Source: Streptantibioticus ferralitis (GTDB lineage: Bacteria; Actinomycetota; Actinomycetes; Streptomycetales; Streptomycetaceae). From it: DNA of 64,000 bases. A program made the translations under genes and the position numbers. The stretch spans positions 1-64,000 of the forward strand of contig NZ_JARHTQ010000036.1 in NCBI RefSeq assembly GCF_029223525.1, written 5' to 3'. Below are positions 2,284 through 19,374 of the stretch, one piece after another. Within the stretch, counting starts at the first letter, position 1. Every line of letters starts with the position of its first letter. The notes under the pieces were generated by a model, which saw nothing but the letters and a program-made list of their open reading frames with translations, was not told the origin of the DNA and searched no databases.

Positions 2284-2838
2284 TCACTCACCGGCCAGCA
2301 GCTTGACCGGGTCGAGGGTGTCCTCGCCCTTGCTCCAGTTGCAGGGGCACAGCTCGTCGGTCTGCAGCGCGTCGAGGACCCGCAGGACCTCCTTGGGGTT
2401 ACGGCCGACGGACCCGGCGGTCACCATGGTGAACTGGATCTCGTTGTTCGGGTCGACGATGAAGACCGCGCGCTGGGCGAAGCCGTCCTCGCCCTCGACG
2501 CCGCACGCCTGCATCAGCTCGTGCTTGGAGTCGGCCAGCATCGGGAACGGCAGGTCGCGCAGGTCCTTGTGGTCCTTGCGCCAGGCGTGGTGGACGAACT
2601 CCGAGTCGCCGGAGACGCCGAGGATCTGGGCGTCGCGGTCCGCGAACTCGTCGTTCAGCTTGCCGAACGCGGCGATCTCGGTCGGGCACACGAAGGTGAA
2701 GTCCTTGGGCCAGAAGAACACCACTGACCAACCCTTGTTGTCCTCCGAGCTGTACTCCTTGATCTCCAGCTTGTCGTCGGACGGGCCTTCGACGCCCAGC
2801 AGCTTCCAGGCGGGGAACTTGTCACCAACGGTGAGCAT
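2284..2838 (-). CDS. ahpC: Peroxiredoxin AhpC, chimeric across the AICE attachment site
   Basis: The 184-residue 2-Cys peroxiredoxin has the peroxidatic Cys in FTFVCPTE and the resolving Cys in ELCPCNW. The start at ATG 2838 (MLTVGDKFP) is preceded by GGAG at 9-nt spacing. The gene is built from two sources. Codons from about VVFFW onward belong to the host chromosome. The first 38 codons and the promoter lie inside the integrated element, to the right of attL. The displaced host 5' end is at 19246-19374 and also encodes 38 residues before VV. Both begin MLTVGDKFP but then diverge (13 of 38 identical without gaps). All catalytic residues come from the host part, so the chimera should be functional. 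It is coupled to ahpD. Confidence 0.93.
2711..2724. other. attL core of the AICE
   Basis: CAGAAGAACACCAC lies within the ahpC codons for VVFFW (minus strand). To its left is host ahpC and to its right is element DNA. The preceding base (C) and following base (T) differ from those at attR (T and G), so the identity is exactly 14 bp. Confidence 0.9.
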
Positions 2839-3046: not shown

Positions 3047-3382
3047 TCATACCGCCATCTGGGCTCCGGGATAGGTGTACGGGTAGTCGTGGCCCATGCT
3101 CGCTGCCGCTGCTGCCCGGCGTCGCTCGTGCTGCTGTCGTCGCTCGAAGTCACGTTCCCACACCACCATGTAGAGGGGAACGAGGGGGCGCGTGCTCTCA
3201 GGAATGGGCAGGGTTCGAGCCAGCACGTGTGCAGGGATAGGCCGCGTCGGTCCGCAGATCACGTAAGCGGGCTGGGCTGTCGAGGCCTGGTGGGCTAAGA
3301 CGTGTCCCGCGCTGTGTCGGCCTTGGGCGGGCAACAGTATCCGCAGCACCCACGTTAGGGCGCGAGCGATAGTGTCACGCAT
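3047..3382 (-). CDS. Hypothetical AICE protein
   Basis: The protein has about 111 residues starting at ATG 3382 (MRDTIARALTWVLRILLP). An amphipathic or weakly hydrophobic N-terminal helix is followed by a Pro/Arg-rich middle and a C-terminus with an Arg/Ala-rich coiled stretch (ERDFERRQQHERRRAAA) ending in PGAQMAV. I do not recognise a domain. It is divergent from a small GntR regulator, with repeated GTCTACC motifs in between, and is probably controlled by it. An upstream in-frame start at 3475 would run into that operator region and is less likely. Confidence 0.6.
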   Translation of the reverse strand: MRDTIARALTWVLRILLPAQGRHSAGHVLAHQASTAQPAYVICGPTRPIPAHVLARTLPIPESTRPLVPLYMVVWERDFERRQQHERRRAAAAASMGHDYPYTYPGAQMAV

Positions 3383-3478
3383 GTCGTCAGCTCCTACTAG
3401 CTGGTGGCGTTCCAAGCCCCGGCGGGCCGGTCCTACGCGGCCTGTCGGGGTTTCTTTGTGCCTGACAGTAGCCATCTT

Positions 3479-3545
3479 GTCTACCCTCGTCTACATCGGT
3501 AGGCAGACGTATGCCACCAGGCGCAGACATGGCTGGTTGTCTACC
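3479..3545. promoter_or_regulatory. Repeated GTCTACC operator-like motifs
   Basis: GTCTAC occurs at 3479 and 3489, its inverted form GTAGGCAGAC at 3499-3508, a half-site GCAGAC at 3523-3528, and TGTCTACC at 3538-3545 immediately before the GntR start. Several spaced half-sites between two divergent genes suggest an autoregulated operator for the 3555 GntR protein. Confidence 0.5.
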
Positions 3546-3554
3546 TTTGCCCTT

Positions 3555-3812
3555 ATGGCAGCAAGCGAGATCGACCATGACGCACCGACGCCGGTCTACC
3601 GGCAGATTGCGGCGCTGATCATTGCCGACATTGAGAGCGGCCTTCTGGTCGTGAACCGAAAGATTCCGTCCGAGGCGGCATTGGTCCAACGCTTTGGGGT
3701 CGCCCGCGAGACTGCACGGCACGCTGTCGGCTACCTACGTGAGGAGGGGTACGTCTTTACAGTGCCGCAGCGCGGTTCTTACGTGGCGGACCGGAGCGCA
3801 AAGTCCAAGTAG
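3555..3812 (+). CDS. Small GntR-family regulator (DNA-binding domain only)
   Basis: The 85-residue protein starts at ATG 3555 (MAASEIDHDAPTPVYRQIAA). It is essentially a stand-alone GntR winged helix: PVYRQIAALIIADIESG at the front, then PSEAALVQRFGVARETARHA as the recognition region, then LREEGYVFTVPQRGSYVA as the wing. It has no effector-binding domain, unlike the UTRA-type protein at 12552-13331. Such short GntR proteins are frequent in Streptomyces AICEs and plasmids as Kor-type transfer repressors. The operator-like repeats directly upstream suggest autorepression. No clear ribosome site is visible, so the transcript may be leaderless. Confidence 0.8.
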   Translation: MAASEIDHDAPTPVYRQIAALIIADIESGLLVVNRKIPSEAALVQRFGVARETARHAVGYLREEGYVFTVPQRGSYVADRSAKSK

Positions 3813-3850
3813 CCCCGCCCATCTGCGATGGGCACGCGGGTGGGCGGGGC
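3812..3850. terminator. Bidirectional terminator between gntR and tgmC
   Basis: GCCCCGCCCA (3812-3821) pairs with TGGGCGGGGC (3841-3850). It lies between the convergent gntR and tgmC genes. Confidence 0.7.
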
Positions 3851-3866
3851 GGCTTCGGGTGACGGC

Positions 3867-5006
3867 TCAGAGCTTGAACGTCCAGCCGTCCGGGGCGGTC
3901 AACCTACTGCCATCTGGTGTGAGTTCAACGGCCATTCGGTGTAGCGGGAACTTGCCCGCGCTCTCCCAACGTCGACGTACGCGTTCTAGGTCGTCCCACA
4001 GACGGCGAGGGCCGCTCTGGTGTACCGCAGGCGCTGAGCCGTCTTCGCCGCGCGCCCATGACCCGTCGGCGGCGAGAAGCCAGAGCACGCGGCGTCCATC
4101 CGGATACGAAGCGGCGCGCGTCTCGATGCCGGGCGTCTCCAGCTCGTACAGCCAACGGAGTGACCATTCTTGCCAGAGGTCCGGGATTGGTCCGTCGGTT
4201 GGCCGTACGTCGTCCCCATCGCTTTCGCGTGCTGCCGAGAACACGTCGTTCAACTTCGGCGGGTAGTCGGCCTCTTGGCGGGTTTCCATGAACGTAGCGG
4301 GGTCCGGCTGAACGGTCCCCCGTGCAACTCCGTCGTCTCCCATGTCGGCCGTGATCAACAGTGCTGTGTGGGCGATGGTTGTCACGAGCCTGCCCCCTGG
4401 TCGGAGTGCGCGCAGCCAGGTTTCCGGTACGGGGCGGACTGAGACAGTCGCAACGATTCGGTCGTATGCGGCGTCGGGGAGTTTGCCCGTGGCATCAATG
4501 GCTTCCATGCGCGGGTTCCGGCCGAATTCGGCTAGGCGTTCGCGGGCGATCTCAACTAGGTACCGGTCGACGTCCACGCTCGTCACGTGCTCGTCTCCGA
4601 TGCGGCGGCTAAGCAGGGCAGCGGAGTACCCGGAGCCGGTACCAACGTCTAGGACCTGGTGGCTCGGTTCCGCGCCCAGGTGATGAAGCATGGACACCAC
4701 GAGTCCCGGCAACGTTGACGACGATGTAGGGCTACCCGCGGCCTTGCCCCCCGGCTTCGCGTGGTCGGCGTGATCCGGGCCTACCCTGGTAACAAGCGTC
4801 TCGTCCCGGTATGCAGCGGCGGTGTGTTCCGCAGAGAGCGGGGACGGGCTGACGAGTTCCCATTCCTCCGTTGGACTGTTCGGAATCCGCTGCCACCAAC
4901 GGGGTACGAGGTGATGCCGGGGAGTGTTGCTTACCGCATCGTGCCACTCGGGCGCGTTCGTAGTCACCGCGTCGGCAAGCGCTGTTGCCGCGCCTTTCCA
5001 ACTCAC
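3867..5006 (-). CDS. tgmC: PIMT-like methyltransferase of an ATP-grasp (graspetide) cluster
   Basis: The 379-residue protein has an N-terminal third (PRHHLVPRWW) and then a protein-L-isoaspartate O-methyltransferase fold with motif I VLDVGTGSGYSAALL. A C-terminal extension of about 150 residues follows, typical of methyltransferases paired with ATP-grasp peptide maturases. In studied graspetides such as fuscimiditide, this enzyme methylates a core Asp, which then collapses to an aspartimide. It starts with GTG at 5006, overlapping the tgmB stop (GTGA), so it is translationally coupled. Together with tgmB and tgmA it forms a compact operon carried by the AICE. The assignment rests on domain layout and context. 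The exact modified residue is not known. Confidence 0.88.
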   Translation of the reverse strand: MSWKGAATALADAVTTNAPEWHDAVSNTPRHHLVPRWWQRIPNSPTEEWELVSPSPLSAEHTAAAYRDETLVTRVGPDHADHAKPGGKAAGSPTSSSTLPGLVVSMLHHLGAEPSHQVLDVGTGSGYSAALLSRRIGDEHVTSVDVDRYLVEIARERLAEFGRNPRMEAIDATGKLPDAAYDRIVATVSVRPVPETWLRALRPGGRLVTTIAHTALLITADMGDDGVARGTVQPDPATFMETRQEADYPPKLNDVFSAARESDGDDVRPTDGPIPDLWQEWSLRWLYELETPGIETRAASYPDGRRVLWLLAADGSWARGEDGSAPAVHQSGPRRLWDDLERVRRRWESAGKFPLHRMAVELTPDGSRLTAPDGWTFKL

Positions 5007-5950
5007 TCGTTCTCTCCTTGCAGAGCGTCAGCCATGACGGATACCAATGGCAAACCGGCCTTTACGGCAATCCAGTGCCATTGTCCGTTAGGGTTCACCT
5101 CAAAGAACTTCCAATGCCCGTCCGGAGTTACGGCGAAGTCTAGTGCGCCGAAGAACAAGCCAAGTTCGTCCATGAGGCGTCGGACCACTTCCTCAACGGA
5201 GGCGGGCATTTCTATCGTCTCGTAGGTGAGCGAGCGGTAATCGGTGCGCCAGTCCAGTTTTGCCCGTTCGCTTCCAGCGTGGATAGCTACCGGGAACATG
5301 CGATCCCCGATGACCGTCAGCCGGACCTCGTACGCCTTCGGAACATGCTCTTGGAACAGGTGAGTCGTGCCCGAAAGGCTGTCGTCGATCTCCCCAGCGG
5401 TCACAAGCGTTGTGGGAAGGAACTTTCTGCGGCCGTCCGGTCCGAGGATCCCACCGCTAAGTCCCTTGTAGATCACCTGATCACTGCCGATGAAGTCCCG
5501 TGCGTGCTCCGGGTCTGACGTGATCACGGTCCTAGGTACGTCTAGGCCGACGCGAGCAGCTACGGCCAGTTGGCGGGGTTTGTAGTTGGCGGCCGATTCG
5601 TTGGCCGGATGGTTGATCCACCGCACGGGGAGCGAGCCTAGAACGCCCAATACCCCAACGCGCGCTTCGGATAGAGCGAATGCACGCGCGTGGTCTGGCC
5701 ATTCCTCAGGCGTAACGAATTCGTTGGGGCGACGCCACCAAACAGATTTGACCGTTTCGAGGTCCAGCGTCCGGGAGCTGGTCAAGGTGCCCGCCCAGCC
5801 ATCCCCCGTTAGGGAGACGGCCAGGCGGGAAGCGGTAGGAAAGTCGGCCGTGTCGTAGCGAACGACGTTCTCACCGCGCTTGCCCAGCTCCTCAACCACC
5901 GCATCGGCCGTCAGATCGTCCCGGCCGGTAAGGATGAGGATGGTTTTCAT
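5003..5950 (-). CDS. tgmB: ATP-grasp ribosomal peptide maturase (graspetide synthetase)
   Basis: The 315-residue protein starts at ATG 5950 (MKTILILTGRDDLTADAV). Family features in order are the SVWWRRP motif, the NHPANESAANYKPRQL segment, YKGLSGG in the nucleotide-binding region, EVRLTVIGDRMFPVAIHA, the DWR triad, and the metal-binding end FFEVNPNGQWHWI. These match the TgmB group of ATP-grasp enzymes, which activate Asp/Glu side chains as acyl phosphates and join them to Ser/Thr or Lys side chains of a precursor peptide as macrolactones or lactams. It lies 4 bp downstream of the precursor gene tgmA and overlaps tgmC. A longer in-frame extension upstream would run through tgmA and is not credible. 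Confidence 0.92.
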   Translation of the reverse strand: MKTILILTGRDDLTADAVVEELGKRGENVVRYDTADFPTASRLAVSLTGDGWAGTLTSSRTLDLETVKSVWWRRPNEFVTPEEWPDHARAFALSEARVGVLGVLGSLPVRWINHPANESAANYKPRQLAVAARVGLDVPRTVITSDPEHARDFIGSDQVIYKGLSGGILGPDGRRKFLPTTLVTAGEIDDSLSGTTHLFQEHVPKAYEVRLTVIGDRMFPVAIHAGSERAKLDWRTDYRSLTYETIEMPASVEEVVRRLMDELGLFFGALDFAVTPDGHWKFFEVNPNGQWHWIAVKAGLPLVSVMADALQGENE

Positions 5951-5954
5951 GTGG

Positions 5955-6182
5955 TTAGTACAGGTCGGTTCCGCTGTCGGAGCCGGGTGTAGAGCCGTCA
6001 CCGTTGCTGGTCTCGGTCTTCGTCTCCGGCTTGTTCGCGGCAAGGGCGTGCCAAGGGTTGCCCTGTGCGGAGACGTTCAGTTGAAGTGCCTCGCTGTAGG
6101 TGATAACCGGATCCTCTTCGGTCCCCTCAGGGGGCGAGATCAGGTGGCGAACTCCGAAGGGAACTAAAAGTGTTGCGCTCAC
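5955..6182 (-). CDS. tgmA: Graspetide precursor peptide
   Basis: The 75-residue peptide starts at GTG 6182, with AAGGAG at 7-nt spacing. The leader carries PFGVRHL at residues 8-14, resembling the P-F-x-x-R motif by which ATP-grasp maturases recognise their substrates (PFFARFL in microviridins). The C-terminal 25 residues are low in hydrophobics and alternate Thr/Ser with Glu, Asp and Lys, ending in GTDLY. These are the nucleophile and acid partners needed for omega-ester or amide crosslinks. D62-G63 and N60-G61 dipeptides are favourable for aspartimide formation by the PIMT-like enzyme. Four bp separate it from tgmB. No protease or exporter is visible in the cluster. Confidence 0.85.
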   Translation of the reverse strand: MSATLLVPFGVRHLISPPEGTEEDPVITYSEALQLNVSAQGNPWHALAANKPETKTETSNGDGSTPGSDSGTDLY

Positions 6183-6431
6183 TGCTGCACTCTCCTTTTC
6201 GGTTGTGTGCCTCTGCTGACCCGCCCCGGCTGAGTGGCCTCGTGTGCACCCAACCGGGACGGGTAGTACCCGCCCAGCCTCGAACAGGAGGAACAAGCCG
6301 GACGGGCGTTCGTACCCGCCCCTGCCGGGATCCCGAATCAGCGAAGGGGGTAGGCCGGTTCGGTCCGTCCGGCAGGGACGGGAGTTCACTAGTTGCTTTG
6401 CGGGCGGCGTGCTCAGCGCTTTTGCCCGCGG

Positions 6432-6716
6432 TCATGACCGTCCCCGCTGCCGTAGGGCATGCAACCTGCCAATCGCCTCCAACTGCCGTGCTTCCCGCTC
6501 GGTACCTCGCCGGAGTCTTAGGAAGGGCACCCGCCAGGTAAAGCCCGTGGGGCGCTCCAACTCGACGTACCGGCCGTCCACCCTTCGCACCTTGCCGGGC
6601 ATGTCGTAGGCGTGATCAAAAACCACCGTGCCAACGCTGATTTCATCCGGCGTGGCGAACACGACGGTTCGTGCGATGGCCCGCGAGGGTGGAGCGACAG
6701 GATTGCTCGTTCTCAC
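6432..6716 (-). CDS. Hypothetical protein of the XRE/graspetide locus
   Basis: The 94-residue protein starts at GTG 6716, overlapping the upstream stop by GTGA. The core reads like a small beta-rich domain (VGTVVFDHAYDMPGKVRRVDGRYVELERP), followed by a basic C-terminal helix (RLRRGTEREARQLEA). No enzymatic motif is visible. Comparable small proteins accompany XRE/TPR regulators in Streptomyces. It is the third gene of a minus-strand operon 7145-6432. The next gene downstream, tgmA, is 249 bp away with its own ribosome site. Confidence 0.65.
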   Translation of the reverse strand: MRTSNPVAPPSRAIARTVVFATPDEISVGTVVFDHAYDMPGKVRRVDGRYVELERPTGFTWRVPFLRLRRGTEREARQLEAIGRLHALRQRGRS

Positions 6717-6877
6717 GCTCGTGCCCTTCTGTGCGGGTGGTTAGCGATCTCTGCATTGCAGCTCTGGGCCGTAACGGGGCTGCCCGTCCGGCGTGCTGCT
6801 TCGCGCTGCCGGGCCAGTGCGGCGCACACGTCGCAATCCTCTACTGGTGCTACGGTCGCCGTGGTTTCACTGCTCAC
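6713..6877 (-). CDS. Small CxxC protein
   Basis: A 54-residue ORF runs from GTG 6877 to TGA 6713-6715. It contains CDVCAALARQREAARRTG, a later single Cys (QSCNAE) and a basic end (HPHRRARA). It overlaps both neighbours (11 bp with the upstream gene, 4 bp with the downstream one), which argues strongly that it is translated. The Cys arrangement suggests a minimal metal-binding or redox motif. I do not recognise a characterised function. Confidence 0.65.
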   Translation of the reverse strand: MSSETTATVAPVEDCDVCAALARQREAARRTGSPVTAQSCNAEIANHPHRRARA

Positions 6878-7145
6878 CGGTCAACCTCCGCAAACCGATT
6901 GCAACGCTGCGGACGAGCGCCCGCGTTGGCCTTGCATACGGCCCGCGCGGCACCTCTGGCGGTAACGGGGTCCGGGGGGAGAACCACACTTTGTCCGGCG
7001 TGCGCTCCCAGCGCTTACGCTGCTCCGCTGCTACGTCGGCCGGTAGCAACCGACGGAACTGATGCCCGTTGACCGCTGCCTTTGCCAGGTTGTCACCCCT
7101 GCTGGCTACTCCTGGGGCTGGGGTCTGCTCCGCCATAGTCGCCAT
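6867..7145 (-). CDS. Hypothetical protein, first gene of operon divergent from XRE regulator
   Basis: The protein has 92 residues from ATG 7145, with ATG 7136 as an alternative. It is basic and Pro-rich, with AAVNGHQFRRLLPADVAAEQ and TPDKVWFSPRTPLPPEVPRG. There are no transmembrane or catalytic motifs. It is divergent from the XRE/TPR gene at 7274 with 128 bp between, and is followed by two overlapping small genes. The arrangement suggests joint control by the XRE protein. Confidence 0.6.
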   Translation of the reverse strand: MATMAEQTPAPGVASRGDNLAKAAVNGHQFRRLLPADVAAEQRKRWERTPDKVWFSPRTPLPPEVPRGPYARPTRALVRSVAIGLRRLTGEQ

Positions 7146-7228
7146 GCCCTTCGCCTGTTCGGTGATCTCTGCTCGCTCTAGGCAACCCCTCGACTACGCA
7201 CGGCGGTACCGTGGCAACAGCAGCAGGA

Positions 7229-7243
7229 CTTAAGAGCTTTAAG
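7229..7243. promoter_or_regulatory. Palindrome CTTAA-N5-TTAAG between divergent genes
   Basis: CTTAAGAGCTTTAAG lies in the 128-bp intergenic region between the small-gene operon (minus) and the XRE/TPR gene (plus), 31 bp before the GTG start. It is AT-rich in a GC-rich setting and symmetric. It is a plausible XRE operator or core promoter. Confidence 0.4.
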
Positions 7244-7273
7244 AGAGCCAGCAGCGCGGGGAGTTGAGGGCCA

Positions 7274-8605
7274 GTGACCACGCCTGAGCCGAACAAAGTT
7301 CTAGAGCGGCTGTACCGCGAGACTGGCTGGACGCTGCGCCAGGCTGCCCAAGAGGTCAACCGCATCGGCACCGAGCGCGGAACGCCACTGCGGTACCGAG
7401 AACCTTCCGTTCACCAGTGGCTCAATGGGCACATGCCCAAGGCGGACGTGCAACCCCTGATCTTGGAAGCGCTGTCCCGCAGGCTGCACCGTCCGATCAC
7501 GCACTCCGAGGCGGGGTTTCCTCCGCCTCCCGGTCAACCGAACAGCCGTCCAAGTACCGTGGAGGGGCTGATCGATCTCGGGAGGCAAGACATGGACCCA
7601 TCTCGCCGCAGCGTCCTCGGTGCGGGTCTATTTTCTGTTGCCCTCACCGTGCCCGGGTGGACGGACGTAGTCGGCCGAATGGACGCTGTTCAGACCGGTC
7701 AGACGCAACATATAGGCATGCCCGAGGTTGAGATGGTCATCGCAATGACCGAGCGGGTGTCTGAACTTGACGACGAATTCGGCGGGCGGCACGCGCGGCC
7801 CATGGCTGCTGCGTTCCTCGTGAATACCGTAAGCCCCTATCTGCGGGCGGATGCTTCCGAATCGGTCCGTAAAGCGATGATGTCGGCTGCGTCGGATTTG
7901 TGCTACCTCACTGGGTATATGGCGGTGGACGAGGGAGTTCACGGCACGGCTCAACAGTATTACCTCAAGGCGCTGGAGCTGGCCGGAGCGGCGGAAGATC
8001 ACCTGACGTACTGCACAACACTGCGGGGAATGAGTGTTCAAGCCGTCGACCTAGGGCACGGTCGAGAGGCTATGCGACGTGCTGACGCTGCCGCCGCTGC
8101 GTCTCCGAACGCTGGTCCTAGGATGCGTGCCTTCCTCGCTGGTCAACAGGCCCATGCGGCGGCGCAAACCGGCGACCGTCATAAGGCGCTTATGTACCTC
8201 AAAGAAGCCGAACGGGCCATGGAGAAGGCCGAGTCACGATCGAAGACTTTTGGTTCTTACAACCCGTCATCACTCACGTACCACGTTGGTCAAGTCCTAT
8301 ATGAGTTGGGTGACATCCGCGGCTCCATCGCGGCCTTGGGAGAATCTGACAGGCTACGTCATCACTCGTTCCGGCGAAATCGGGTGCGGTATCTATCCAT
8401 GCTCGCTGAACGACAGCTAGAACTTGGTCACCTTGAGGCCGCGTGTGACACGTGGGGGAAAGCCGTCGAAATTTACCCGCTAGTCCAGTCGGGGCAATGC
8501 GACCAAAGCATGGCCAATATGCGGGCTCGAATTCGTCCCTACCTAAAGAATAAGGTTGCACGACAGCTCTACGAGCGGGCGCGAGTCCCGGCTGATCGAC
8601 TCTGA
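7274..8605 (+). CDS. XRE-family transcriptional regulator with C-terminal TPR-like region
   Basis: The 443-residue protein starts at GTG 7274. Residues 1-70 form an HTH-like domain (LERLYRETGWTLRQAAQEVN then YREPSVHQWLNG). A linker ends in DMDPSRRSVLGAGLFSVALTVPGW, typical of Streptomyces XRE proteins with a hydrophobic segment, and a TPR-like helical repeat region follows to the end. Such proteins often sense peptides or small ligands through the TPR part. It flanks the graspetide cluster and is the best candidate regulator of it. Base use is less GC-biased than in neighbouring chromosomal genes, consistent with transfer. Confidence 0.8.
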   Translation: MTTPEPNKVLERLYRETGWTLRQAAQEVNRIGTERGTPLRYREPSVHQWLNGHMPKADVQPLILEALSRRLHRPITHSEAGFPPPPGQPNSRPSTVEGLIDLGRQDMDPSRRSVLGAGLFSVALTVPGWTDVVGRMDAVQTGQTQHIGMPEVEMVIAMTERVSELDDEFGGRHARPMAAAFLVNTVSPYLRADASESVRKAMMSAASDLCYLTGYMAVDEGVHGTAQQYYLKALELAGAAEDHLTYCTTLRGMSVQAVDLGHGREAMRRADAAAAASPNAGPRMRAFLAGQQAHAAAQTGDRHKALMYLKEAERAMEKAESRSKTFGSYNPSSLTYHVGQVLYELGDIRGSIAALGESDRLRHHSFRRNRVRYLSMLAERQLELGHLEAACDTWGKAVEIYPLVQSGQCDQSMANMRARIRPYLKNKVARQLYERARVPADRL

Positions 8606-8714
8606 TGACGGGGCGTCGACGAGTGGTCCTTTCGTGGCCTTTGATCACTACGTCTCTCAACTCATCAGGCGGCACTGGCTCTTTGGTGGCTTCGATCTGG
8701 TCTGAGGGGTCACA

Positions 8715-9299
8715 GTTTCATCACGCGTGACGAAACCTGAGGGCGGGTGCGGTCGTCCCCAAGTAACGTCACGTGTGACGAAACTTGGGAGGGTGGGTCA
8801 TGGCCGGTGAGTCGGGTAGCGCGTGCGCGGTGTGCGGCGGGCCGTTGGGGGTGCGGGCTCGAACGGGACGTCCGTCGGTGTACTGCTCGCGCGCGTGTCA
8901 GGCTCGGGCGTATCGCGCTCGTGTGGCTGGGGCTGGACGGTCCCGGCCGGAGTCGTCGGCTGCGGGTGCCGTGTCGGTTGCGGCAGGTGGCGGGGAGTTG
9001 GCGCGGGAGGTTCGGCGGCTGGTCGGGTTGTTCGCTGAGCGGGCCGAACAGGCAGTGTGCGCGGCGGAGGGCGGCGAGGTTGGTCCTGGTGGCGCCGGTC
9101 GTGACGCTGACGACCTGGCGGAACTCGCCGCGAAGGTGGTTGATCTCGTCCGCTCCGCCTCCTTGCCTACGCACCCGTCGGCTGAATCGTCACGGTGTGA
9201 CGAAACGTCGGGGGTGGTGGTTGCTGGGGCGCAGGATGGGCGGATGGGCTCGTCGGCGGCGGCGACTGCTCGCCGTACGGTTTCATCGCGTGACGAAAC
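8715..9299. repeat. Four palindromic GTTTCRTCACG / CGTGACGAAAC sites
   Basis: Imperfect palindromes occur at 8715-8736 (GTTTCATCACGCGTGACGAAAC, given here in two halves: GTTTCATCACG and CGTGACGAAAC), 8761-8786, about 9186-9207 and 9280-9299. All share the right half GTGACGAAAC. Two precede the gene at 8800 and two lie inside it. The pattern resembles iterons, partition (parS-like) sites or a multi-site operator. Confidence 0.75.
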
Positions 9300-9663
9300 A
9301 TCGGTGCCCGTAGCCGTGGTGGAGTCGGCGGCGGCTGGGCCTGTCGAACGGGTGGTGCGCACGGTGGACATGGCGCATGAGTTCGGGGGCGGCTGGCAAC
9401 TGGTCCGGCTGGCGAGCAGCTTTGACGGTGACTGGCTGGTGCGGCTGCACGGTGAGACGGTCGGCAGCGTGGGGCGTGTGCGCACGTTGTCGGGCCGTGG
9501 CGTGCGGGGCTGGGAAGCGCGTCACCTTGGGCATGCGGTTCCGGGTGGGGTTGCCGGTCTGTGGCCAAGCCGTGGGGTGGCTATGGCGGCTGTGGTCCGT
9601 GCCCATCAAGAACGTGGCGGGGCAAAGGGTCGTCGCGGGAGTCGGCGGCGTCCCTCGCGCTGA
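8800..9663 (+). CDS. AICE protein with N-terminal four-Cys zinc-finger-like motif
   Basis: The 287-residue protein starts at ATG 8800. The N-terminus has CAVCGG and YCSRACQARAYRAR, a C-x2-C-x(n)-C-x3-C pattern seen in small DNA-binding proteins of Streptomyces plasmids. The middle is an Ala/Glu-rich helical region (LAREVRRLVGLFAERAEQ), then a linker whose DNA contains two of the GTGACGAAAC palindromes. A C-terminal domain (GGGWQLVRLASSFDGDWLVR) follows and then a basic tail. The repeats upstream and within the gene suggest that it binds them, for autoregulation or partition-like maintenance. That is inference; no homologue was identified. Confidence 0.7.
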   Translation: MAGESGSACAVCGGPLGVRARTGRPSVYCSRACQARAYRARVAGAGRSRPESSAAGAVSVAAGGGELAREVRRLVGLFAERAEQAVCAAEGGEVGPGGAGRDADDLAELAAKVVDLVRSASLPTHPSAESSRCDETSGVVVAGAQDGRMGSSAAATARRTVSSRDETSVPVAVVESAAAGPVERVVRTVDMAHEFGGGWQLVRLASSFDGDWLVRLHGETVGSVGRVRTLSGRGVRGWEARHLGHAVPGGVAGLWPSRGVAMAAVVRAHQERGGAKGRRGSRRRPSR

Positions 9664-9761
9664 GCTGGCGGGGGCGCGGTGCTGGGACGGTGCGCTGTTG
9701 ACACGCGGTCATTCGGGCCTGTCCCAGGCTCCGGCCCTGGTCGGGCTTTCTTGCGGCTCCA

Positions 9762-9777
9762 ACTTATACGGATAAGT
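9762..9777. promoter_or_regulatory. GntR-type operator ACTTATACGGATAAGT upstream of SH3 cluster
   Basis: A 16-bp palindrome differs by one base from ACTTATACGAATAAGT at 13451-13466, next to the UTRA GntR gene. It is followed by GCTTGAC, also shared with 13399-13413. It lies about 110 bp before the first SH3 gene. Confidence 0.6.
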
Positions 9778-9884
9778 GCTTGACGTAAGAGGTGGAGTGG
9801 GCTGATGCTGATGCCTCCTCCGCGTGAGTGCTGACGGACAAGCCGTCAGGGTGTGCTCACGCGGCAAATCTGAGGGGCAATCAG

Positions 9885-10313
9885 ATGGCAATGACGCGTG
9901 TGCGTATGCGCGTGCGGGCTCTGGCTGTGGCCGGAGTTCTGGCGGTGGCTGGTGTGGGTGTCGGCGCGGCTTCGGCGTCGGCTGCGACTCCGGCTGACGG
10001 ATCCGGGGTGGAGGGTCCGGCGGCGGCTGCGGTGGTCCTTCCGCAAGTCACGGTGGACGGTCTGCGGATGCGTGACGACGTGGGGACCGGTGCGGGCATC
10101 CTCGGGCAGCTCTACGCCGGTGACCAGGTGCAGATCCTTTCGACCGCGCAGGATGCGGGCGGCCAGCAGTGGGACCAGGTGACGCTTGCCAACGACAGTG
10201 CGGGCGGGCTGCCTTCCGGCTTCGCGGGCTGGGTCAGTGAGGCGTACCTCAGTGAGCCTTCGTGCCCGTCGGATAGCCAGATCCAGTGCCTGATGTACGG
10301 CGGTCATGACTGA
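9885..10313 (+). CDS. Secreted SH3-domain protein 1
   Basis: The 142-residue protein starts at ATG 9885, with GAGGGG at 7-nt spacing. A Sec signal peptide (basic MTRVRMRVR, hydrophobic core, ASASAA) is followed by a bacterial SH3 domain (VTVDGLRMRDDVGTGAGILG, GWVSEAYL). A short tail contains two Cys (SEPSCPS, IQCLM) that could form a disulphide. Bacterial SH3 domains usually bind peptidoglycan peptides. It is the most divergent of three tandem copies and has the GntR palindrome upstream. Confidence 0.8.
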   Translation: MAMTRVRMRVRALAVAGVLAVAGVGVGAASASAATPADGSGVEGPAAAAVVLPQVTVDGLRMRDDVGTGAGILGQLYAGDQVQILSTAQDAGGQQWDQVTLANDSAGGLPSGFAGWVSEAYLSEPSCPSDSQIQCLMYGGHD

Positions 10314-10377
10314 TCGCCGGGGCTCTCGCGCTCGCACGGACAAGCAATCTGGCCAGTCATCAGGAAGAGAGAACAAC

Positions 10378-10773
10378 ATGCGTGCAAGCTCTACCGGTCG
10401 CGTTGGTCGTCGTCTGGGTGCGTTGGCGGTCGTGACGATGGTGGCGGCGGCCGGTCTGGGTGTGGGCGTGACGTCTGCCTCGGCGGCTCCGTCGCATGCG
10501 GCTCGGGCGGCGAGTAGCTATGCCACACAGGTCACAGCTGATGGGGTCCGGCTGCGGACCGGTCCGGGGACTGGGTACGGCGTGGAGGGGCTCCTCTACT
10601 ACGGGGACGCGGTCGACATCACGCAGTGCAGCGGGGGCTGGGATCGGGTGTATCTCGCCGCTGACAGTGCGGGCGGCCTGGGCTCGGGCGCTGCGGGGTG
10701 GGTGTACGGCAGCTACCTGGAGCCGCTTGCGGGCTCGCCGATAGGCGGCGGGCTGCCTTCGGGCTGCGAGTGA
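10378..10773 (+). CDS. Secreted SH3-domain protein 2
   Basis: The 131-residue protein starts at ATG 10378, after AGGAAGAGAG. A signal peptide (GRRLGALAVVTMVAAAGLGV, ending TSASAAP) precedes an SH3 domain (VTADGVRLRTGPGTGYGVEG, LLYYGD, GWVYGSYL). Two Cys residues are present, one mid-domain (ITQCSGGW) and one at the very end (PSGCE), a likely disulphide. It is a tandem paralogue of the next gene, with near-identical signal peptide and RLRTGPGTGYGVEGLLYYGD core, so the duplication is recent. It is probably exported to the cell wall. Confidence 0.82.
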   Translation: MRASSTGRVGRRLGALAVVTMVAAAGLGVGVTSASAAPSHAARAASSYATQVTADGVRLRTGPGTGYGVEGLLYYGDAVDITQCSGGWDRVYLAADSAGGLGSGAAGWVYGSYLEPLAGSPIGGGLPSGCE

Positions 10774-10818
10774 CCGCGTGCAGTGATCAGTCATCAGAAA
10801 CGGAACGAAGGAGTAGGC

Positions 10819-11217
10819 ATGTCTTCTACTTGGTTCGCCGGTCGTGCCGTGCGTCGTCTGGGTGCGCTGGCGGTCGTGACGGCGGTGGCTGCGGCTGGTC
10901 TGGGCGTCGGCGTGACGTCCGCCTCGGCGGCTCCGGCACACTCGGCCGCGCCCTCTGCGGTTGCTGAGCCGCATGGCTGGCCTGGGGGCATCACCGGGAA
11001 TGGGGTCCGCTTGAGGACCGGTCCGGGGACCGGGTACGGGGTGGAGGGTCTTCTCTACTACGGGGACACGGTTCAGCCGGTGGGCTGCTCCGGGTCGTGG
11101 TACCACGTGTACCTGACTGCGAACAGTGCCGGTGGTCTACCCGCAGGTACGTGGGGGTGGGTCAACGATGCCTACATTGACCCGATAACGGGTGCTCCAT
11201 CGTCGGACTGCTCGTAA
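10819..11217 (+). CDS. Secreted SH3-domain protein 3
   Basis: The 132-residue protein starts at ATG 10819, after GAAGGAG. The signal peptide is closely similar to copy 2 (VRRLGALAVVTAVAAAGLGV). The SH3 domain has the same RLRTGPGTGYGVEG core and GWVNDAYI. Cys residues are at VGCSGSW and the C-terminus (SSDCS), matching copy 2. A strong terminator follows, so 9885-11217 forms one transcription unit of three wall-associated proteins. Within an AICE they may act at the mycelial surface during transfer or entry exclusion. That role is speculative. Confidence 0.82.
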   Translation: MSSTWFAGRAVRRLGALAVVTAVAAAGLGVGVTSASAAPAHSAAPSAVAEPHGWPGGITGNGVRLRTGPGTGYGVEGLLYYGDTVQPVGCSGSWYHVYLTANSAGGLPAGTWGWVNDAYIDPITGAPSSDCS

Positions 11218-11225
11218 CCGCCTGC

Positions 11226-11268
11226 GGTGCCCCCTCCTGTGTCGGCGGGAGGGGGCACCTCCGTTTTT
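11226..11268 (+). terminator. Rho-independent terminator after SH3 cluster
   Basis: The stem GGTGCCCCCTCC / GGAGGGGGCACC (12 bp, 10-nt loop) is followed by TCCGTTTTT. Confidence 0.9.
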
Positions 11269-11470
11269 CCGTAGCGTTACATACCGCTAGGTTGGTTTCC
11301 CATTCGCCAGTTACCTACTGTGCAGCCGCTTTCCAATTCTGATGTGTAGTCAGTGTTTACCGGGCGGGTGCACGGTGGGCGGTCCCCTTGTGTGACAAGG
11401 GAATTCAAAGGTCTAGTGCATATGCCTGGGGCGTGAGAGGCTGGACGGCTCAGGTTTCGGGAGGTGGAAC

Positions 11471-11746
11471 GTGATGGACACGCCCGGTGACGGACGCGGC
11501 GCGGGCGAGTCGGCTGATGACTCTGTGTGGATACGTGGGGTGGACTACGTGACCAGCTATCGGCAGGCAGATACCGTAGCGTCGGATTTCAACGAGGTGA
11601 TGGCGCTTCTCGGCTTGGGCCTGGAGGACGAGCGGTTTCGGGCACTTCCGCGCACTGGTCCGGACGGTGAGCCGCTGGTGGTCTTGACGGTCGAGGCGGT
11701 GCAGCTCTGCGTGGCTGTCCTGGTGGCTTTAGCGGAATGTCTGTGA
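11471..11746 (+). CDS. Hypothetical protein
   Basis: The protein has 90-91 residues. GTG 11471 and ATG 11474 are adjacent start choices after GGGAGGTGG. The acidic N-terminus is followed by a compact helical region (VASDFNEVMALLGLGLEDER) and a hydrophobic C-terminal helix (VEAVQLCVAVLVALAECL). It is not recognised. The pattern resembles small DUF6907-like or AICE accessory proteins but is not diagnostic. The next small gene starts 12 bp downstream. Confidence 0.6.
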   Translation: MMDTPGDGRGAGESADDSVWIRGVDYVTSYRQADTVASDFNEVMALLGLGLEDERFRALPRTGPDGEPLVVLTVEAVQLCVAVLVALAECL

Positions 11747-11758
11747 GGGAGGGGCATC

Positions 11759-11941
11759 ATGCGTGGTCGACCCAAGGGAACGACATGGATGACAAGGACA
11801 GGCAAGCGGGTGTGGGTCGAGGTCGACGTGACGGGGCGTCGGGTCTGCTGTGAGGCGTGCCCTCGTCCGATCCCCGTGCGGGGCTGGGGTTCTCCTGCTG
11901 GCGCGGCTCGGCGGCATGCGCGGCAGTGCTCTAGGCGCTGA
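11759..11941 (+). CDS. Small basic Cys-containing protein
   Basis: A 60-residue ORF starts at ATG 11759 after GGGAGGGG. It is highly basic, with VCCEACPRPIP and a later RQCSRR that could bind a metal. It lies 12 bp after the previous gene, in the same direction. The function is unknown. Confidence 0.5.
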   Translation: MRGRPKGTTWMTRTGKRVWVEVDVTGRRVCCEACPRPIPVRGWGSPAGAARRHARQCSRR

Positions 11942-12023
11942 CCTGGCCGAACGCCAGGGGCACGGCCTGGTGGCGGACGATGAACTGAACAACTCTTACC
12001 CCTTCCCGCTGCTCAGCCACTGA
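11916..12023 (+). CDS. Possible 35-residue peptide
   Basis: ATG 11916 to TGA 12021-12023 encodes a peptide with LAERQGHGLVADDELNNSYP and the end FPLLSH. It overlaps the previous ORF in another frame. Amino-acid composition looks coding, but there is no strong ribosome site. Low confidence. Confidence 0.3.
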   Translation: MRGSALGADLAERQGHGLVADDELNNSYPFPLLSH

Positions 12024-12186
12024 CCGTGGGTTCCGCGGCGGGGTAGAGGGTCGACAGGCGCGATTGGTGCCGCACTACCCCCATCGGCATCAACCGTCAT
12101 CCAAGGGGCGGTGTTCTCCAGCGCGGACGGGCCTTGACCCGGACGATGCGGTTTCGCGCTGGAGGGCACCGACCAGCGGGCGGGGT

Positions 12187-12210
12187 CCAGGGACCGCTAT
12201 AGGTCCCTGG
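12187..12210. repeat. Perfect inverted repeat CCAGGGACC-N6-GGTCCCTGG
   Basis: The arms are 9 bp with spacer GCTATA, lying in a non-coding stretch of the element. It could be a replication/transfer origin feature or a regulator site. No T run follows, so a terminator is unlikely. Confidence 0.6.
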
Positions 12211-12390
12211 TACCACGCCGCGCAACCAGCCTCGTCACGATCTCCGCCACCGTGTTGAGCACCGTGGGCGCCGGCCTGCGGAGTGGTCCCGTACGCGGCG
12301 GCGCGGTTGCCAACGGCGCTCGGTGCGGCGGGAGTTCGCGGTCCCGGTAGACGCGTCAGTGTCCGGTGACGGCTGCTGGTGCACAAGGAT

Positions 12391-12418
12391 GCCCCCCCGG
12401 CTGGCGGCGGGGGGCTTT
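12391..12418 (+). terminator. Stem-loop GCCCCCC / GGGGGGC with T run
   Basis: A 7-bp G/C stem with an 11-nt loop is followed by TTTCT on the plus strand. It would end a transcript entering from the left (11471-12023 region) or a small RNA. Confidence 0.55.
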
Positions 12419-12551
12419 CTGCTGCTCAAGGCGTGGTGCGTGCGCGGGCGGTTGCCGTCCGGACGGGACCGGCCGTCAGGCCGCATGCCCGGCCGAGGCG
12501 GCAGGGCCGCCCGGCGCGCCGCAGGCGTGCCCTTGAGTAAGTAGAGAAAAG

Positions 12552-13331
12552 TTACTCCGCAGCTTTGGCGGGGCGGCGCTTGGTGGGTGCCTTCACAGGC
12601 GTCACGCGGTAACTGAGACGGGTTGTAGCGGCGGACACGCGCAACTCTTCGACTAGCAGCGGGCGTTGCGTGGCCTCGTCGAGGGTGACGCGATAGGAGA
12701 CCAATAGGGGCTGCGGGTCGGTGAGTCCCAACGCCATGCGTTCGTCGGGAGTCGGCATCATCGCCCCTACTTCCTCATCCCACACGATCGTGAACCCAGC
12801 GGTCGTCAGGTGCTTGTACAGCTCGGGCACGGGGGCGTCAGGGGTCGTGGCCAGTGCTGGGACGTCGGCGGCGACCTGGAGCGGAATCAGCATGCGGTGA
12901 GTTAGGCGCTCGCCAGTCAGCGGATCGCGCAACAGGCGGTCGACGGAAATAGCTTGCTGTCCCTGCTGGTTCAGCAGTTCGGCGGGTGTGCCGGTGAGGG
13001 TCACGCGGGAGATCGCGGGCGCTTCCGTCTCCTTCATCTCCGGCAGCTCGTACCGCGTGCCGGTGCGGCTGACCGTGCGCGGGATCGCTCGTGCTGCCGG
13101 GCTGCCCTTGACGGTGGTCCGCCGACCCTGCGCCTTGATCACCAGCCCCATATTTCGTAGCTCGTTGACGGCAGCTCGCACGGTCGCCGGGCTGACCCGG
13201 TAGGTGCTCACCATCTCTGACTCGCTGGGCAGGGTGCTGCCCGCTTCCAGATCACCTTGTTGGATCGCCTGCGCGATTCGTCCGGCAAGTTGCAGGTACA
13301 TCGGCTGCGGTCGCGTGATGCCGCTGTCCAT
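12552..13331 (-). CDS. GntR-family regulator with UTRA domain (KorA/KorSA-like)
   Basis: The 259-residue protein starts at ATG 13331. The N-terminal winged helix (PMYLQLAGRIAQAIQQGDL, PSESEMVSTYRVSPATVRAA) is followed by an effector-type UTRA domain (from about residue 95: AISRVTLTGTPAELL, VDRLLRDPLTGERLTHRML, LLVSYRVTLDEATQRPLL). In AICEs such as pSAM2, GntR repressors keep transfer and replication genes silent. It is divergent from the transfer operon starting at 13496. The palindrome ACTTATACGAATAAGT lies in that intergenic space and nearly the same site precedes the SH3 genes, so a two-target regulon is likely. Confidence 0.85.
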   Translation of the reverse strand: MDSGITRPQPMYLQLAGRIAQAIQQGDLEAGSTLPSESEMVSTYRVSPATVRAAVNELRNMGLVIKAQGRRTTVKGSPAARAIPRTVSRTGTRYELPEMKETEAPAISRVTLTGTPAELLNQQGQQAISVDRLLRDPLTGERLTHRMLIPLQVAADVPALATTPDAPVPELYKHLTTAGFTIVWDEEVGAMMPTPDERMALGLTDPQPLLVSYRVTLDEATQRPLLVEELRVSAATTRLSYRVTPVKAPTKRRPAKAAE

Positions 13332-14076: not shown

Positions 14077-14285
14077 TGTACCTGGGGGATGACGACACCT
14101 TCGGTCACCTGCTGCGTGATCTGGAACTGCTGAGCGGTACTAAGTCGCTGCTGGTCACCGTGGATGATCTGCCCACGCTGGAATTCGTGATGGGTATGGT
14201 CGGCGTCACTGCCGAACAGGCCGCACGGCGTGCCCAGTTGATCGGCGCCCGGCTTCGCCTCCAAGGGGGTGGCGGGGATGACTAA
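14076..14285 (+). CDS. Small hypothetical AICE protein
   Basis: The 69-residue protein starts at ATG 14076 (TGATG overlap with the upstream stop, GGGAG upstream). It is acidic and helical (FGHLLRDLELLSG, VMGMVGVTAEQAARRAQL). It overlaps the start of the translocase gene by 8 bp. The tight coupling indicates a role in transfer or its control. No domain is recognised. Confidence 0.65.
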   Translation: MYLGDDDTFGHLLRDLELLSGTKSLLVTVDDLPTLEFVMGMVGVTAEQAARRAQLIGARLRLQGGGGDD

Positions 14286-15612
14286 TCACCTGCTGCTGTG
14301 GGTGGTGCTGCTCGCCGCGACGGTAGGCGCACTGACACGCAAGTGGTGGGCACCCCACGCTAGTCGGTGGGCTGAGGCGCGACAGATCCCGTGGCGCTGG
14401 TGGCTGCTGGAATATCCGGTCTTGACCGTGCGTATGCGTGTGACGTGGCGTCAGGTCTGCCTGTTGAACGGGCTGTCCATCTCGCGGCGCAGTACTGCGC
14501 GGGTGGTTGACGGCGTCATGGTGCGTGGCGTTGCCCTGCGGCAGTCACCTCCCCGCTTGGGTCTGCCGCATCTCACCCGTACCGGCGTCGTCGTTCGGAT
14601 TCGGATCCATCCGGGGCAGACTCCCGGCCCTTTCCTCGCTGCCGCACAGGCACTGGAGCATGCCTGGCGGGTGCACGGGGTGCGGGTGACCAGTCCGCGA
14701 CGTGGTGAGGTGCTCATCACGATCACCGCACACAACACGCTCGATGACACGGCGCGCGATGTAGCGGCGCCGACGGCTGGACCCGTGCTGGTGGCGAGGG
14801 TCGGGCGAGTGGACGACGGCGGGCCGTGGGTGCTGAACCTGCGACGCATACCCCACTGGCTGGTGGTCGGCGCGACCCAATCGGGGAAATCCACGCTGCT
14901 CGCAGCCTTCATCCGGGCCATAGCGCCGCAACCGGTCGCACTGGTCGGCATCGACTGTAAAGGAGGTATGGAACTGGGCCTTTTCGGGCGTCGGCTGTCC
15001 GCGCTGGCTACGAGTCGACCCGAGGCGCTGAGGGTGCTTACCGGCCTGGTGACCGAGGTGCAGCAACGGATGACCCTGTGTTGGTCGGCGGGGGTCCGCT
15101 CCATCTGGGAACTGCCGGAAGATCGGCGGCCGGTACCGGTGGTCTTGATCGTGGATGAGCTGGCAGAGCTGTACCTGATGGACGGCACGCGGGAAGGGCG
15201 AGATCAGTCTGAGCAGTGCTCCACCTTGCTGCTTCGCCTCGCGCAACTCGGCGCAGCCCTGGGCGTACACCTGGTGGTGGCTGGTCAACGGGTGGGCTCC
15301 GACATGGGGCCAAGGGTCACGGCGCTGCGTGCCCAACTCGGCGGGCGCATCGTCCATCGCGTGCACGACGAAGCGTCAGCGGAAATGGCGCTGGGCGACC
15401 TAAGCCCGGACGCCGTGGCGGTGGCCCAAATGATCACTGAAGAGGAACAGGGCGTCGCTGTCGCCACCATCGGCGGCCGGTGGGTACGCGCCCGGTCGGT
15501 CCTCGTCACGACCGAAGAGGCACGACAGGTCGCCGAGGAGTACGCCGCGCTTACTCCCGACCTGCCCGCGCTGGCGGCGGTGACCTTCGAAAAGGAGGGG
15601 GGTGCAGCATGA
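14278..15612 (+). CDS. traB: TraB/FtsK-SpoIIIE-type DNA translocase
   Basis: The 444-residue protein starts at ATG 14278. An N-terminal transmembrane helix (LLLWVVLLAATVGAL) is followed by the motor domain with Walker A GATQSGKST, Walker B VVLIVDELAEL and a sensor-like GVHLVVAGQRVGSD. Streptomyces conjugation differs from type IV systems. One hexameric FtsK-like ATPase moves double-stranded DNA between mycelial cells after binding clt repeats through a C-terminal winged helix. Here the C-terminal end (ARQVAEEYAALTPDLPALAA) is short. The gene is coupled to neighbours on both sides (8-bp and ATGA overlaps). It is named TraSA in pSAM2. Confidence 0.9.
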   Translation: MTNHLLLWVVLLAATVGALTRKWWAPHASRWAEARQIPWRWWLLEYPVLTVRMRVTWRQVCLLNGLSISRRSTARVVDGVMVRGVALRQSPPRLGLPHLTRTGVVVRIRIHPGQTPGPFLAAAQALEHAWRVHGVRVTSPRRGEVLITITAHNTLDDTARDVAAPTAGPVLVARVGRVDDGGPWVLNLRRIPHWLVVGATQSGKSTLLAAFIRAIAPQPVALVGIDCKGGMELGLFGRRLSALATSRPEALRVLTGLVTEVQQRMTLCWSAGVRSIWELPEDRRPVPVVLIVDELAELYLMDGTREGRDQSEQCSTLLLRLAQLGAALGVHLVVAGQRVGSDMGPRVTALRAQLGGRIVHRVHDEASAEMALGDLSPDAVAVAQMITEEEQGVAVATIGGRWVRARSVLVTTEEARQVAEEYAALTPDLPALAAVTFEKEGGAA

Positions 15613-15928: not shown

Positions 15929-17380
15929 GTGGCCTACCCGGCTACCTCGGACGCGCGGCGCTCGGCACTGGCAAATGCTGAGCGCCTGCGCGCGTTGACA
16001 GAAACAGAGCGGGATATTATCCGGCTCGTCCATGAACCTGGCTTCCCCCGCTGGCTGGAGCAAATCCACGCCATCGGCGGGTGCGCTCACCCTATATACC
16101 TATCCGGCCGGAAAACCATCCGTGACGCTACCGGCGCGGTTCTCCAGCATTACGACACATCCCACGAACCTGGCGGTCGGCTCGCCGTGCGGTGTCGAAA
16201 CCGCCGTGAGTCCCGGTGCCCGTCCTGCTCGCGACTGCACGCGGGCGACACCTTCCACCTGGTGCGTAGCGGCCTGGTCGGCGGCAAGCACGTGCCTACC
16301 GCTGTCGCCGGGCATCCACGGTTGTTCGTCACCCTGACTGCCCCCTCCTTCGGCGCTGTCCATCGCGCGGGGGAGCGCTGCCATCCACGCCGTGAGGGGG
16401 GCCAGTGCCCGCATGGGCGGCCGGTCCACTGCGGAGCGCACCACGCTGATACCGACCCCCACGTCGGCCAACCGCTGTGCCCCGCCTGCTACGACTACCC
16501 GGGGCACGTCCTGTGGCACGCGATGGCCGGACGGCTGTGGAACCGGTTCTGCACCGAGGCGCGGCGGCAACTCGCCTCCTCGGCGGGCATACCGCGTTCC
16601 CGCTTGCGGGAGCACGTCCTGGTGGGCTTCGCCAAAGTCGCGGAATTCCAACGTCGGGGAGCTGTCCACTTCCATGCCGTTGTGCGCCTCGACGGGCCGC
16701 ACGGTCCTGGGTCGCCCCCGCCCGCGTGGGCTACCGGTGACCTCCTGGAAGAGGCGATCCGTCAGGCGGCGGCTACGACGTACGTACGCGCGCCCTACAC
16801 GCATGCCCTGGGTGAGCCGGTCTTGCGCTGGGGCCCGCAGATCGATATCCACCCAATCCGCGGGCTCGTCGGCGACGGTGCGGTATCCGACTCAGCAGTA
16901 GCGGCCTACGTCGCCAAGTACGTCAGCAAATCCATATCCGACGCGGGCGGCACCGACCAACGCGTTCGCTCGCTGGAGGAAATACAACTCCTGCCCGTGC
17001 ACGCCCACCTACGGGCGCTGATGCTCACCTGCTGGCGTCTCGGCGGCCTACCCGAACTCGCCGACCTGAGACTCAGGGCATGGGCTCACACCCTCGGCTA
17101 CCGCGGCCACGTACTCACCAAAAGCCGGGCCTACAGCACGACGTACAAGGCGCTTCGGGCGGCTCGGGCGGACTATTTGGGCGACACGTCCCGGGGGCAG
17201 GGTGACGGCCTGGTGGACGGCGTTGATGTGGAGTCTGTCTGGCGGTTCGTTGGCTCAGGCCACACGCCCGGCGAGGCCGAGATAGCGCGCGGGATTGCTG
17301 CGGATCGTGAGCATGCGCGTGAGGAAGCGAGGTTTGCGGGTGGCGGCAGTGGGCGCCCTGGCGTTGGGGTTGATCTCTGA
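15929..17380 (+). CDS. repSA: Replication initiator protein (RepSA-like, rolling-circle type)
   Basis: The 483-residue protein starts at GTG 15929, after GGAAGGGG. It has a zinc-finger-like Cys/His region (CPSCSRLHAGDTFH, and a later CHPRREGGQCPHGRPVHCGA), then the HUH metal-binding motif in AVHFHAVVRLDG. A probable catalytic Tyr lies in AAYVAKYVSKS. These are hallmarks of the RepSA group, which nick the double-strand origin and start rolling-circle replication of excised AICEs. The origin is often inside or just before the gene; the 134-bp gap before it holds no ORF. The stop overlaps the start of the next small gene. Confidence 0.9.
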   Translation: MAYPATSDARRSALANAERLRALTETERDIIRLVHEPGFPRWLEQIHAIGGCAHPIYLSGRKTIRDATGAVLQHYDTSHEPGGRLAVRCRNRRESRCPSCSRLHAGDTFHLVRSGLVGGKHVPTAVAGHPRLFVTLTAPSFGAVHRAGERCHPRREGGQCPHGRPVHCGAHHADTDPHVGQPLCPACYDYPGHVLWHAMAGRLWNRFCTEARRQLASSAGIPRSRLREHVLVGFAKVAEFQRRGAVHFHAVVRLDGPHGPGSPPPAWATGDLLEEAIRQAAATTYVRAPYTHALGEPVLRWGPQIDIHPIRGLVGDGAVSDSAVAAYVAKYVSKSISDAGGTDQRVRSLEEIQLLPVHAHLRALMLTCWRLGGLPELADLRLRAWAHTLGYRGHVLTKSRAYSTTYKALRAARADYLGDTSRGQGDGLVDGVDVESVWRFVGSGHTPGEAEIARGIAADREHAREEARFAGGGSGRPGVGVDL

Positions 17381-19245: not shown

Positions 19246-19374
19246 TCAGAAGAACACCACGCGCCACTTGCCCTCGTAGCTCTTGTGGTTGATCTGGGCG
19301 AACGCCTTGTCCGGGTCAAGGTCGACACAGGCGGTCAGGTCGTACTCGGGGAACTTGTCACCGACAGTGAGCAC
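19246..19374 (-). pseudogene. ahpC: Displaced native 5' end of ahpC
   Basis: Reading from GTG 19374 gives [16 protein letters not shown] and continues to KWRVVFF, then TGA at 19246-19248 where element DNA begins. The 42-codon remnant matches the expected N-terminus of Streptomyces AhpC and would join in frame to host ahpC at 2710 if the element were excised. Its promoter towards the left is the native one shared with oxyR, so a short AhpC fragment may still be made. Confidence 0.92.
19247..19260. other. attR core of the AICE
   Basis: CAGAAGAACACCAC is identical to attL 2711-2724. To the left lies element DNA next to int, to the right the native 5' end of ahpC. Confidence 0.9.

Follow-up and report, generated by a model that had tools for sequence, protein, structure and literature searches.

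A graspimiditide-type gene cassette as likely cargo of an AICE integrated in ahpC of Streptantibioticus ferralitis

A stretch of 64,000 nucleotides of the S. ferralitis genome (hereafter the window) carries a graspetide cassette of the group 13 type that is very probably cargo of an AICE integrated inside ahpC. The gene trio at 6182-3867 is a new group 13 graspetide ("graspimiditide") cluster, a peptide class that is already known. The less ordinary part is its AICE carrier, together with the insertion in ahpC and the replacement of the 5' end of that gene. The features of the cassette, of the element and of its integration site are listed in Table 1.

Table 1. Features of the graspetide cassette, its carrier element and the ahpC integration site (window coordinates).
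Feature	Position	Strand	Remarks
Host ahpC 3' end	2284-2724	-	In frame with the element-borne 5' end
Left attachment site (CAGAAGAACACCAC)	2711-2724		14-bp direct repeat with 19247-19260
Element-borne replacement ahpC 5' end	2725-2838	-	95-98% identical in sister genomes
Small GntR-family regulator	3495-3812	+	PF00392; longest ORF from 3372; convergent with M
M, PIMT-like peptide L-aspartyl O-methyltransferase, 379 aa	3867-5006	-	TIGR04188, Pfam PCMT
B, ATP-grasp graspetide synthetase (tgmB-type), 315 aa	5003-5950	-	TIGR04187
Precursor A (tgmA-type), 75 aa	5955-6182	-	GTG start at 6182; TIGR04186, E 3e-4
Predicted core T54-D73, TKTET-SNGDGSTPGS-DSGTD	5964-6023	-	Predicted from fuscimiditide-like spacing and invariance
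D62 codon, predicted aspartimide position	5997-5999	-	
PFGVRHL leader motif of A	6141-6161	-	
NsdA-family TPR regulator	7274-8605	+	NF053720, 448 bits; divergent from the precursor
GntR-family regulator, AICE backbone	12552-13331	-	Sister elements have a homologue (43%) in the same position
FtsK/SpoIIIE-type transfer protein (Tra)	14269-15612	+	PF01580, 92 bits
RepSA (pSAM2-type) replication initiator	15929-17380	+	PF20199, 526.7 bits
Large serine integrase	17581-19203	-	PF00239, PF07508, PF13408
Right attachment site	19247-19260		14-bp direct repeat; same junction in two sister genomes, as for the left site
Orphaned native ahpC 5' end	19249-19374	-	Beside oxyR; fragment also present in both sister genomes (93-98% identity)
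oxyR	19501-20460	+	

The precursor, ATP-grasp and PIMT-like genes form the compact minus-strand operon of three ORFs that had been proposed from the DNA letters. A ribosome site GGAG (sequence AAAAGGAG) lies upstream of the GTG start of A, B starts 4 nt past the stop codon of A and the start of M overlaps the stop of B by GTGA, giving a translationally coupled trio. Neither a transporter nor a protease gene was found within the cluster. The B protein scores 385.8 bits against TIGR04187, over the curated cut-off of 350, and its nearest solved structures in the PDB are MvdD/MdnC-type ligases (5ig9, E 9e-41). The M protein well exceeds the Pfam PCMT cut-off (69 bits for 20.3) and stays under the curated cut-off of TIGR04188 (303 bits for 380), as A does for TIGR04186 (20.7 bits for 25). 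The best PDB match of M is the Thermotoga PIMT 1DL5, the one PAMT-clade protein with a solved structure (PMC10787088). In M the PCMT domain extends to about residue 212 of 379 and is followed by a C-terminal extension of ~165 aa past the SAM-binding domain. Note that the AlphaFold model of M (9 sequences) has a mean pLDDT of 54, too poor to serve as a structure-search query; the order of strands and helices past residue 228 in this low-confidence model resembles the described PAMT C-terminal domain. The trio shows the gene-level features of group 13: a graspetide (MvdD/SAV_5884) type ATP-grasp ligase, a neighbouring PIMT-homologous methyltransferase with an extension of more than 100 aa, and a precursor whose leader has a PFG-type motif and whose core is conserved. 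The leader reads V-P-F-G, not R-P-F-G, a partial fit to the RPFG recognition motif (PMC13003496).

Nine close actinobacterial loci were found in the species-genome scan, all with A and M alongside a B protein 75-82% identical to that of the window; they correspond to eight genomes, one Streptacidiphilus strain being counted twice (chromosome and plasmid copies). Two further genomes with the trio (G108 and G309) came from a family search, bringing the total to ten, and the trio is apparently open in nine of these. The exception is Streptacidiphilus sp. 4-A2, in which the leader frame of A and the M gene are broken in both copies (L001, L002), one chromosomal and the other on an 86-kb plasmid contig. 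Another decayed cluster (L049, G025:C22:271775-272011) retains the precursor and a methyltransferase fragment, with no ATP-grasp gene. The distribution is patchy: 5 of 395 sampled genomes of the family have a close precursor. At the other aligned loci the precursor orthologues are 55-76% identical and are followed by the same genes. About 30 columns are identical across all nine aligned precursors; the leader is variable and the C-terminal core, PETxTETSNGDGxxPGSDSGTDL(Y/W), nearly invariant. Codon differences in the core are mostly synonymous, with 279 synonymous versus 68 non-synonymous ones over all pairs. The frame is therefore real and the core is the part under purifying selection, so that the precursor passes the check on its conservation in homologous clusters set by the original prediction. 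This conserved core, the TIGR04187 score and the PCMT match also bear out its reading of the trio as a graspetide cluster with a PIMT-like enzyme. The window's own genome has two more ATP-grasp maturases, with 41% and 35% identity to B: L013 (G000:C64), with an adjoining methyltransferase, and L015 (G000:C66), with a precursor-like ORF carrying a MRPFALTYARRPIP leader motif.

The core is laid out as T54-x3-T58, a 10-residue loop holding D62-G63, and D69-x3-D73. Fuscimiditide has the same layout (T3, T7, loop 8-17, D18, D22; PMC12291112), and in characterised graspimiditides the methylated Asp is always in the loop and precedes a Gly (PMC13001092). Shared spacing and the loop DG lead us to predict an inner ester T58-D69 and an outer ester T54-D73, making a stem-loop with two esters, in which D62 becomes an aspartimide. 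In tail shuffles such spacing arises together with a loop DG in 0.02% of cases, a figure that is descriptive since the motif had been noticed before the test. The tail had been described as rich in Thr, Asp, Glu and Lys; this holds for Thr and Asp, but Lys residues are few and unconserved, and the tail is rather Thr/Ser/Gly/Asp-rich. Likewise, the core does differ in its letters from known ones, as had been noted, but its cross-link geometry is exactly that of fuscimiditide and the core itself is recurrent and nearly invariant. Its letters were not found in the graspetide papers searched, in a comparison that did not include the albusimiditide sequence.

In the proposed maturation the ATP-grasp enzyme would bind the PFGVRHL leader and phosphorylate D69 and D73, whereupon T58 and T54 would attack to yield two nested omega-esters round the 10-residue loop (~-36 Da). 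The PIMT-like enzyme would next methylate the Asp of the loop D-G, D62 (+14 Da), and the methyl ester would lose methanol (-32 Da) to form the aspartimide, with possible hydrolysis to isoAsp. N60-G61 may deamidate spontaneously by analogy with an Asn in SsfA. The leader would be removed by an unlinked protease.

The trio lies between the attachment sites of a 16.5-kb element whose ends are 16,536 bp apart. RepSA, an FtsK/SpoIIIE-type Tra and a site-specific integrase occur together in this element, as characteristic of AICEs, and it is flanked by direct repeats whose empty site is found in relatives. The 14-bp repeat falls in the ahpC codons for VVFF. In genomes of the same family with an empty site, ahpC is intact, has a native-type N-terminus and adjoins oxyR. 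The N-terminus borne by the element is unlike this host type; its coding sequence continues in frame into the host 3' part and restores a full AhpC. Short blocks upstream of both ahpC 5' ends are alike and equally spaced, and peroxide control of ahpC may therefore persist. Relatives of the integrase were found in five other genomes of the family. In three genomes from other genera, a related integrase lies close to an ahpC gene that is either split or adjacent. A stranded native ahpC fragment lies beside the integrase in G119 and G277, which have elsewhere an intact ahpC with a different N-terminus, of the element type in G119. The use of ahpC as a serine-integrase site by such elements was not found in the papers searched. 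At 9828-11217 the element also codes for three tandem, similar, small secreted-looking proteins (VTxDGLRMRDDVGTG / GVRLRTGPGTGYGV), SH3-like by eye, which are probably further AICE cargo.

Both other genomes examined from the genus have an insertion at the same site, with a related integrase (88-91%), a stranded native ahpC 5' end, an element-type replacement 5' end, and RepSA and Tra in between. The precursor is absent from these two sister genomes and no part of the trio is found in their element region. Together with the exact element ends, these cargo-free elements of the same type uphold the proposal that the trio is AICE cargo. The window and the sisters share high DNA identity up to 2947 and from 17615 on. 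This identity is lost in the interior but for Tra/Rep stretches of 67-72% and a 130-bp block near 12425, which suggests that the interior was exchanged or that another element sharing these ends came in. The trio falls in this exchanged part. The cassette would have entered the species inside the AICE, which would excise from and integrate at ahpC by means of its serine integrase, the element-encoded N-terminus restoring AhpC.

What moves appears to be a cassette larger than the trio, running GntR-M-B-A-NsdA over ~3321-8605. The block GntR-M-B-A (window 3321-6164) recurs in Streptomyces huasconensis (L007) in the same order and orientation, followed in the same layout by NsdA (window 7170-8494), with about 72.5% nucleotide identity over the whole block; the small GntR (57-63% identical) is in the same place and NsdA is 75% identical. 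Two more distant trio loci likewise have an NsdA-like gene ahead of them. The GC3 of the five cassette genes (0.65-0.72) is below that of the AICE backbone (0.75-0.79) and far below that of the host (0.90-0.98). This recurrence, the NsdA-like genes elsewhere and the lower GC3 suggest that the cassette moves as a unit. Expression would presumably be controlled by the NsdA-type and GntR-type genes. At L007:3431-5245 and 7624-12463, the S. huasconensis block adjoins a large serine recombinase of another type; convincing att repeats were not found for that element.

AICE carriage of the trio is the exception and not the rule. Apart from S. huasconensis, the other close relatives have no RepSA, FtsK or serine recombinase within ~20 kb of the trio, G008 excepted (one FtsK gene ~20 kb away), and most lack RepSA and FtsK within ~20-30 kb; the search covered RepSA, FtsK and serine recombinases, on contigs some of which were short. 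Small AICE-like neighbour ORFs were not found at the other trio loci. The idea that the cluster is usually AICE-borne was rejected on these searches, most relatives having no AICE genes nearby. The suggested horizontal spread on a mobile carrier is accordingly supported as regards movement of the cassette but not as regards spread by AICEs generally, S. huasconensis being the sole other close relative with an adjoining recombinase. On plasmids, 68 tgmB records were found, all less than 60% identical to B of the window, so that the presence of graspetide clusters on mobile DNA is in itself nothing new. Viral contigs yielded no relative and phages only distant ATP-grasp genes. A link between graspedites and ICEs was not found in the papers searched.

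The number and place of the cross-links could be other than predicted. T56 is also invariant, as are E53, E57 and T72, and with the C-terminal carboxylate available the esters could number three. A different pattern, with at least three esters (one linking T56 and the C-terminal carboxylate, or a shifted register) or a K55 amide, followed by the D62 aspartimide, is nevertheless unlikely: D69 and D73 are the only conserved side-chain carboxylates C-terminal of the loop and stand at the fuscimiditide spacing. K55 is unique to the window precursor, being Q in all relatives, and loop positions 64-65 are freely variable, which argues against linkage at those residues.

As for the carrier, the insertion could be old, vertically inherited and immobile, and the cluster silent or decaying, since AICE cargo often decays (PMC9513070), both sisters have the same insertion site with integrase ends 86-89% identical, and the integrase is frameshifted in one of them. 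We regard this as somewhat unlikely, given that the trio genes, Int, RepSA and Tra are all open in the window, that purifying selection acts on the core across relatives and that the interior is almost wholly unlike that of the sisters, which suggests that it was exchanged or replaced later. It is highly improbable that the trio was already resident in the chromosome and was picked up there by the element. Its relatives are mostly outside AICEs, as such an origin would have it, but the trio sits between attL and attR, is missing in the sister species, has a GC3 strongly unlike the host and recurs in the same block beside a serine recombinase in another species. A cassette brought in as AICE cargo is the reading that we retain.

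A wider scheme is put forward tentatively, as possible but somewhat doubtful. A family of serine-integrase elements in Streptomycetaceae would target the ahpC coding sequence and replace its promoter and N-terminal part, so that the main peroxidase operon would be expressed from the element; the interior would be exchangeable and would here hold a cassette for an aspartimide peptide, one that passes as a single regulated block between unrelated elements. We know of no biological role for aspartimide-bearing graspetides. The presence of the cassette in one element and its absence from same-site sisters provide a natural comparison with and without it, and the window core is an independent test case for the fuscimiditide cross-link rule. 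The element itself clearly exemplifies integration within the coding region of a stress gene whose 5' end is replaced in the process.

Serine integrases are a known minority in AICEs, some of them inserting in protein genes (Ghinet et al. 2011, PMC3218068). The window element shares RepSA, an FtsK-type Tra and the integrase with the pSAM2-type AICEs that have serine integrases (PMC3218068), from which it differs by its ahpC target with an element-borne 5' replacement and by its graspetide cassette cargo, neither of which was found in the papers searched. The cassette has the same trio of precursor, ATP-grasp enzyme and PIMT homologue as fuscimiditide (ThfA/ThfB/ThfM of Thermobifida fusca), the founding graspimiditide, with PFG in the leader and two Thr and two Asp identically spaced around a 10-residue loop in which, by analogy, the aspartimide is also expected. 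The window precursor differs by its shorter leader (~50 aa versus 67), its stem (TKTET/DSGTD versus TMRVT/DVEKD) and two extra C-terminal residues (LY), its chemistry being predicted from the genes. The same enzyme trio, stem-loop logic and loop Asp-Gly methylation site are found in amycolimiditide, albusimiditide and SsfA(BM) (PMC13001092); amycolimiditide is reported to have four esters and SsfA five, whereas two are predicted for the window peptide.
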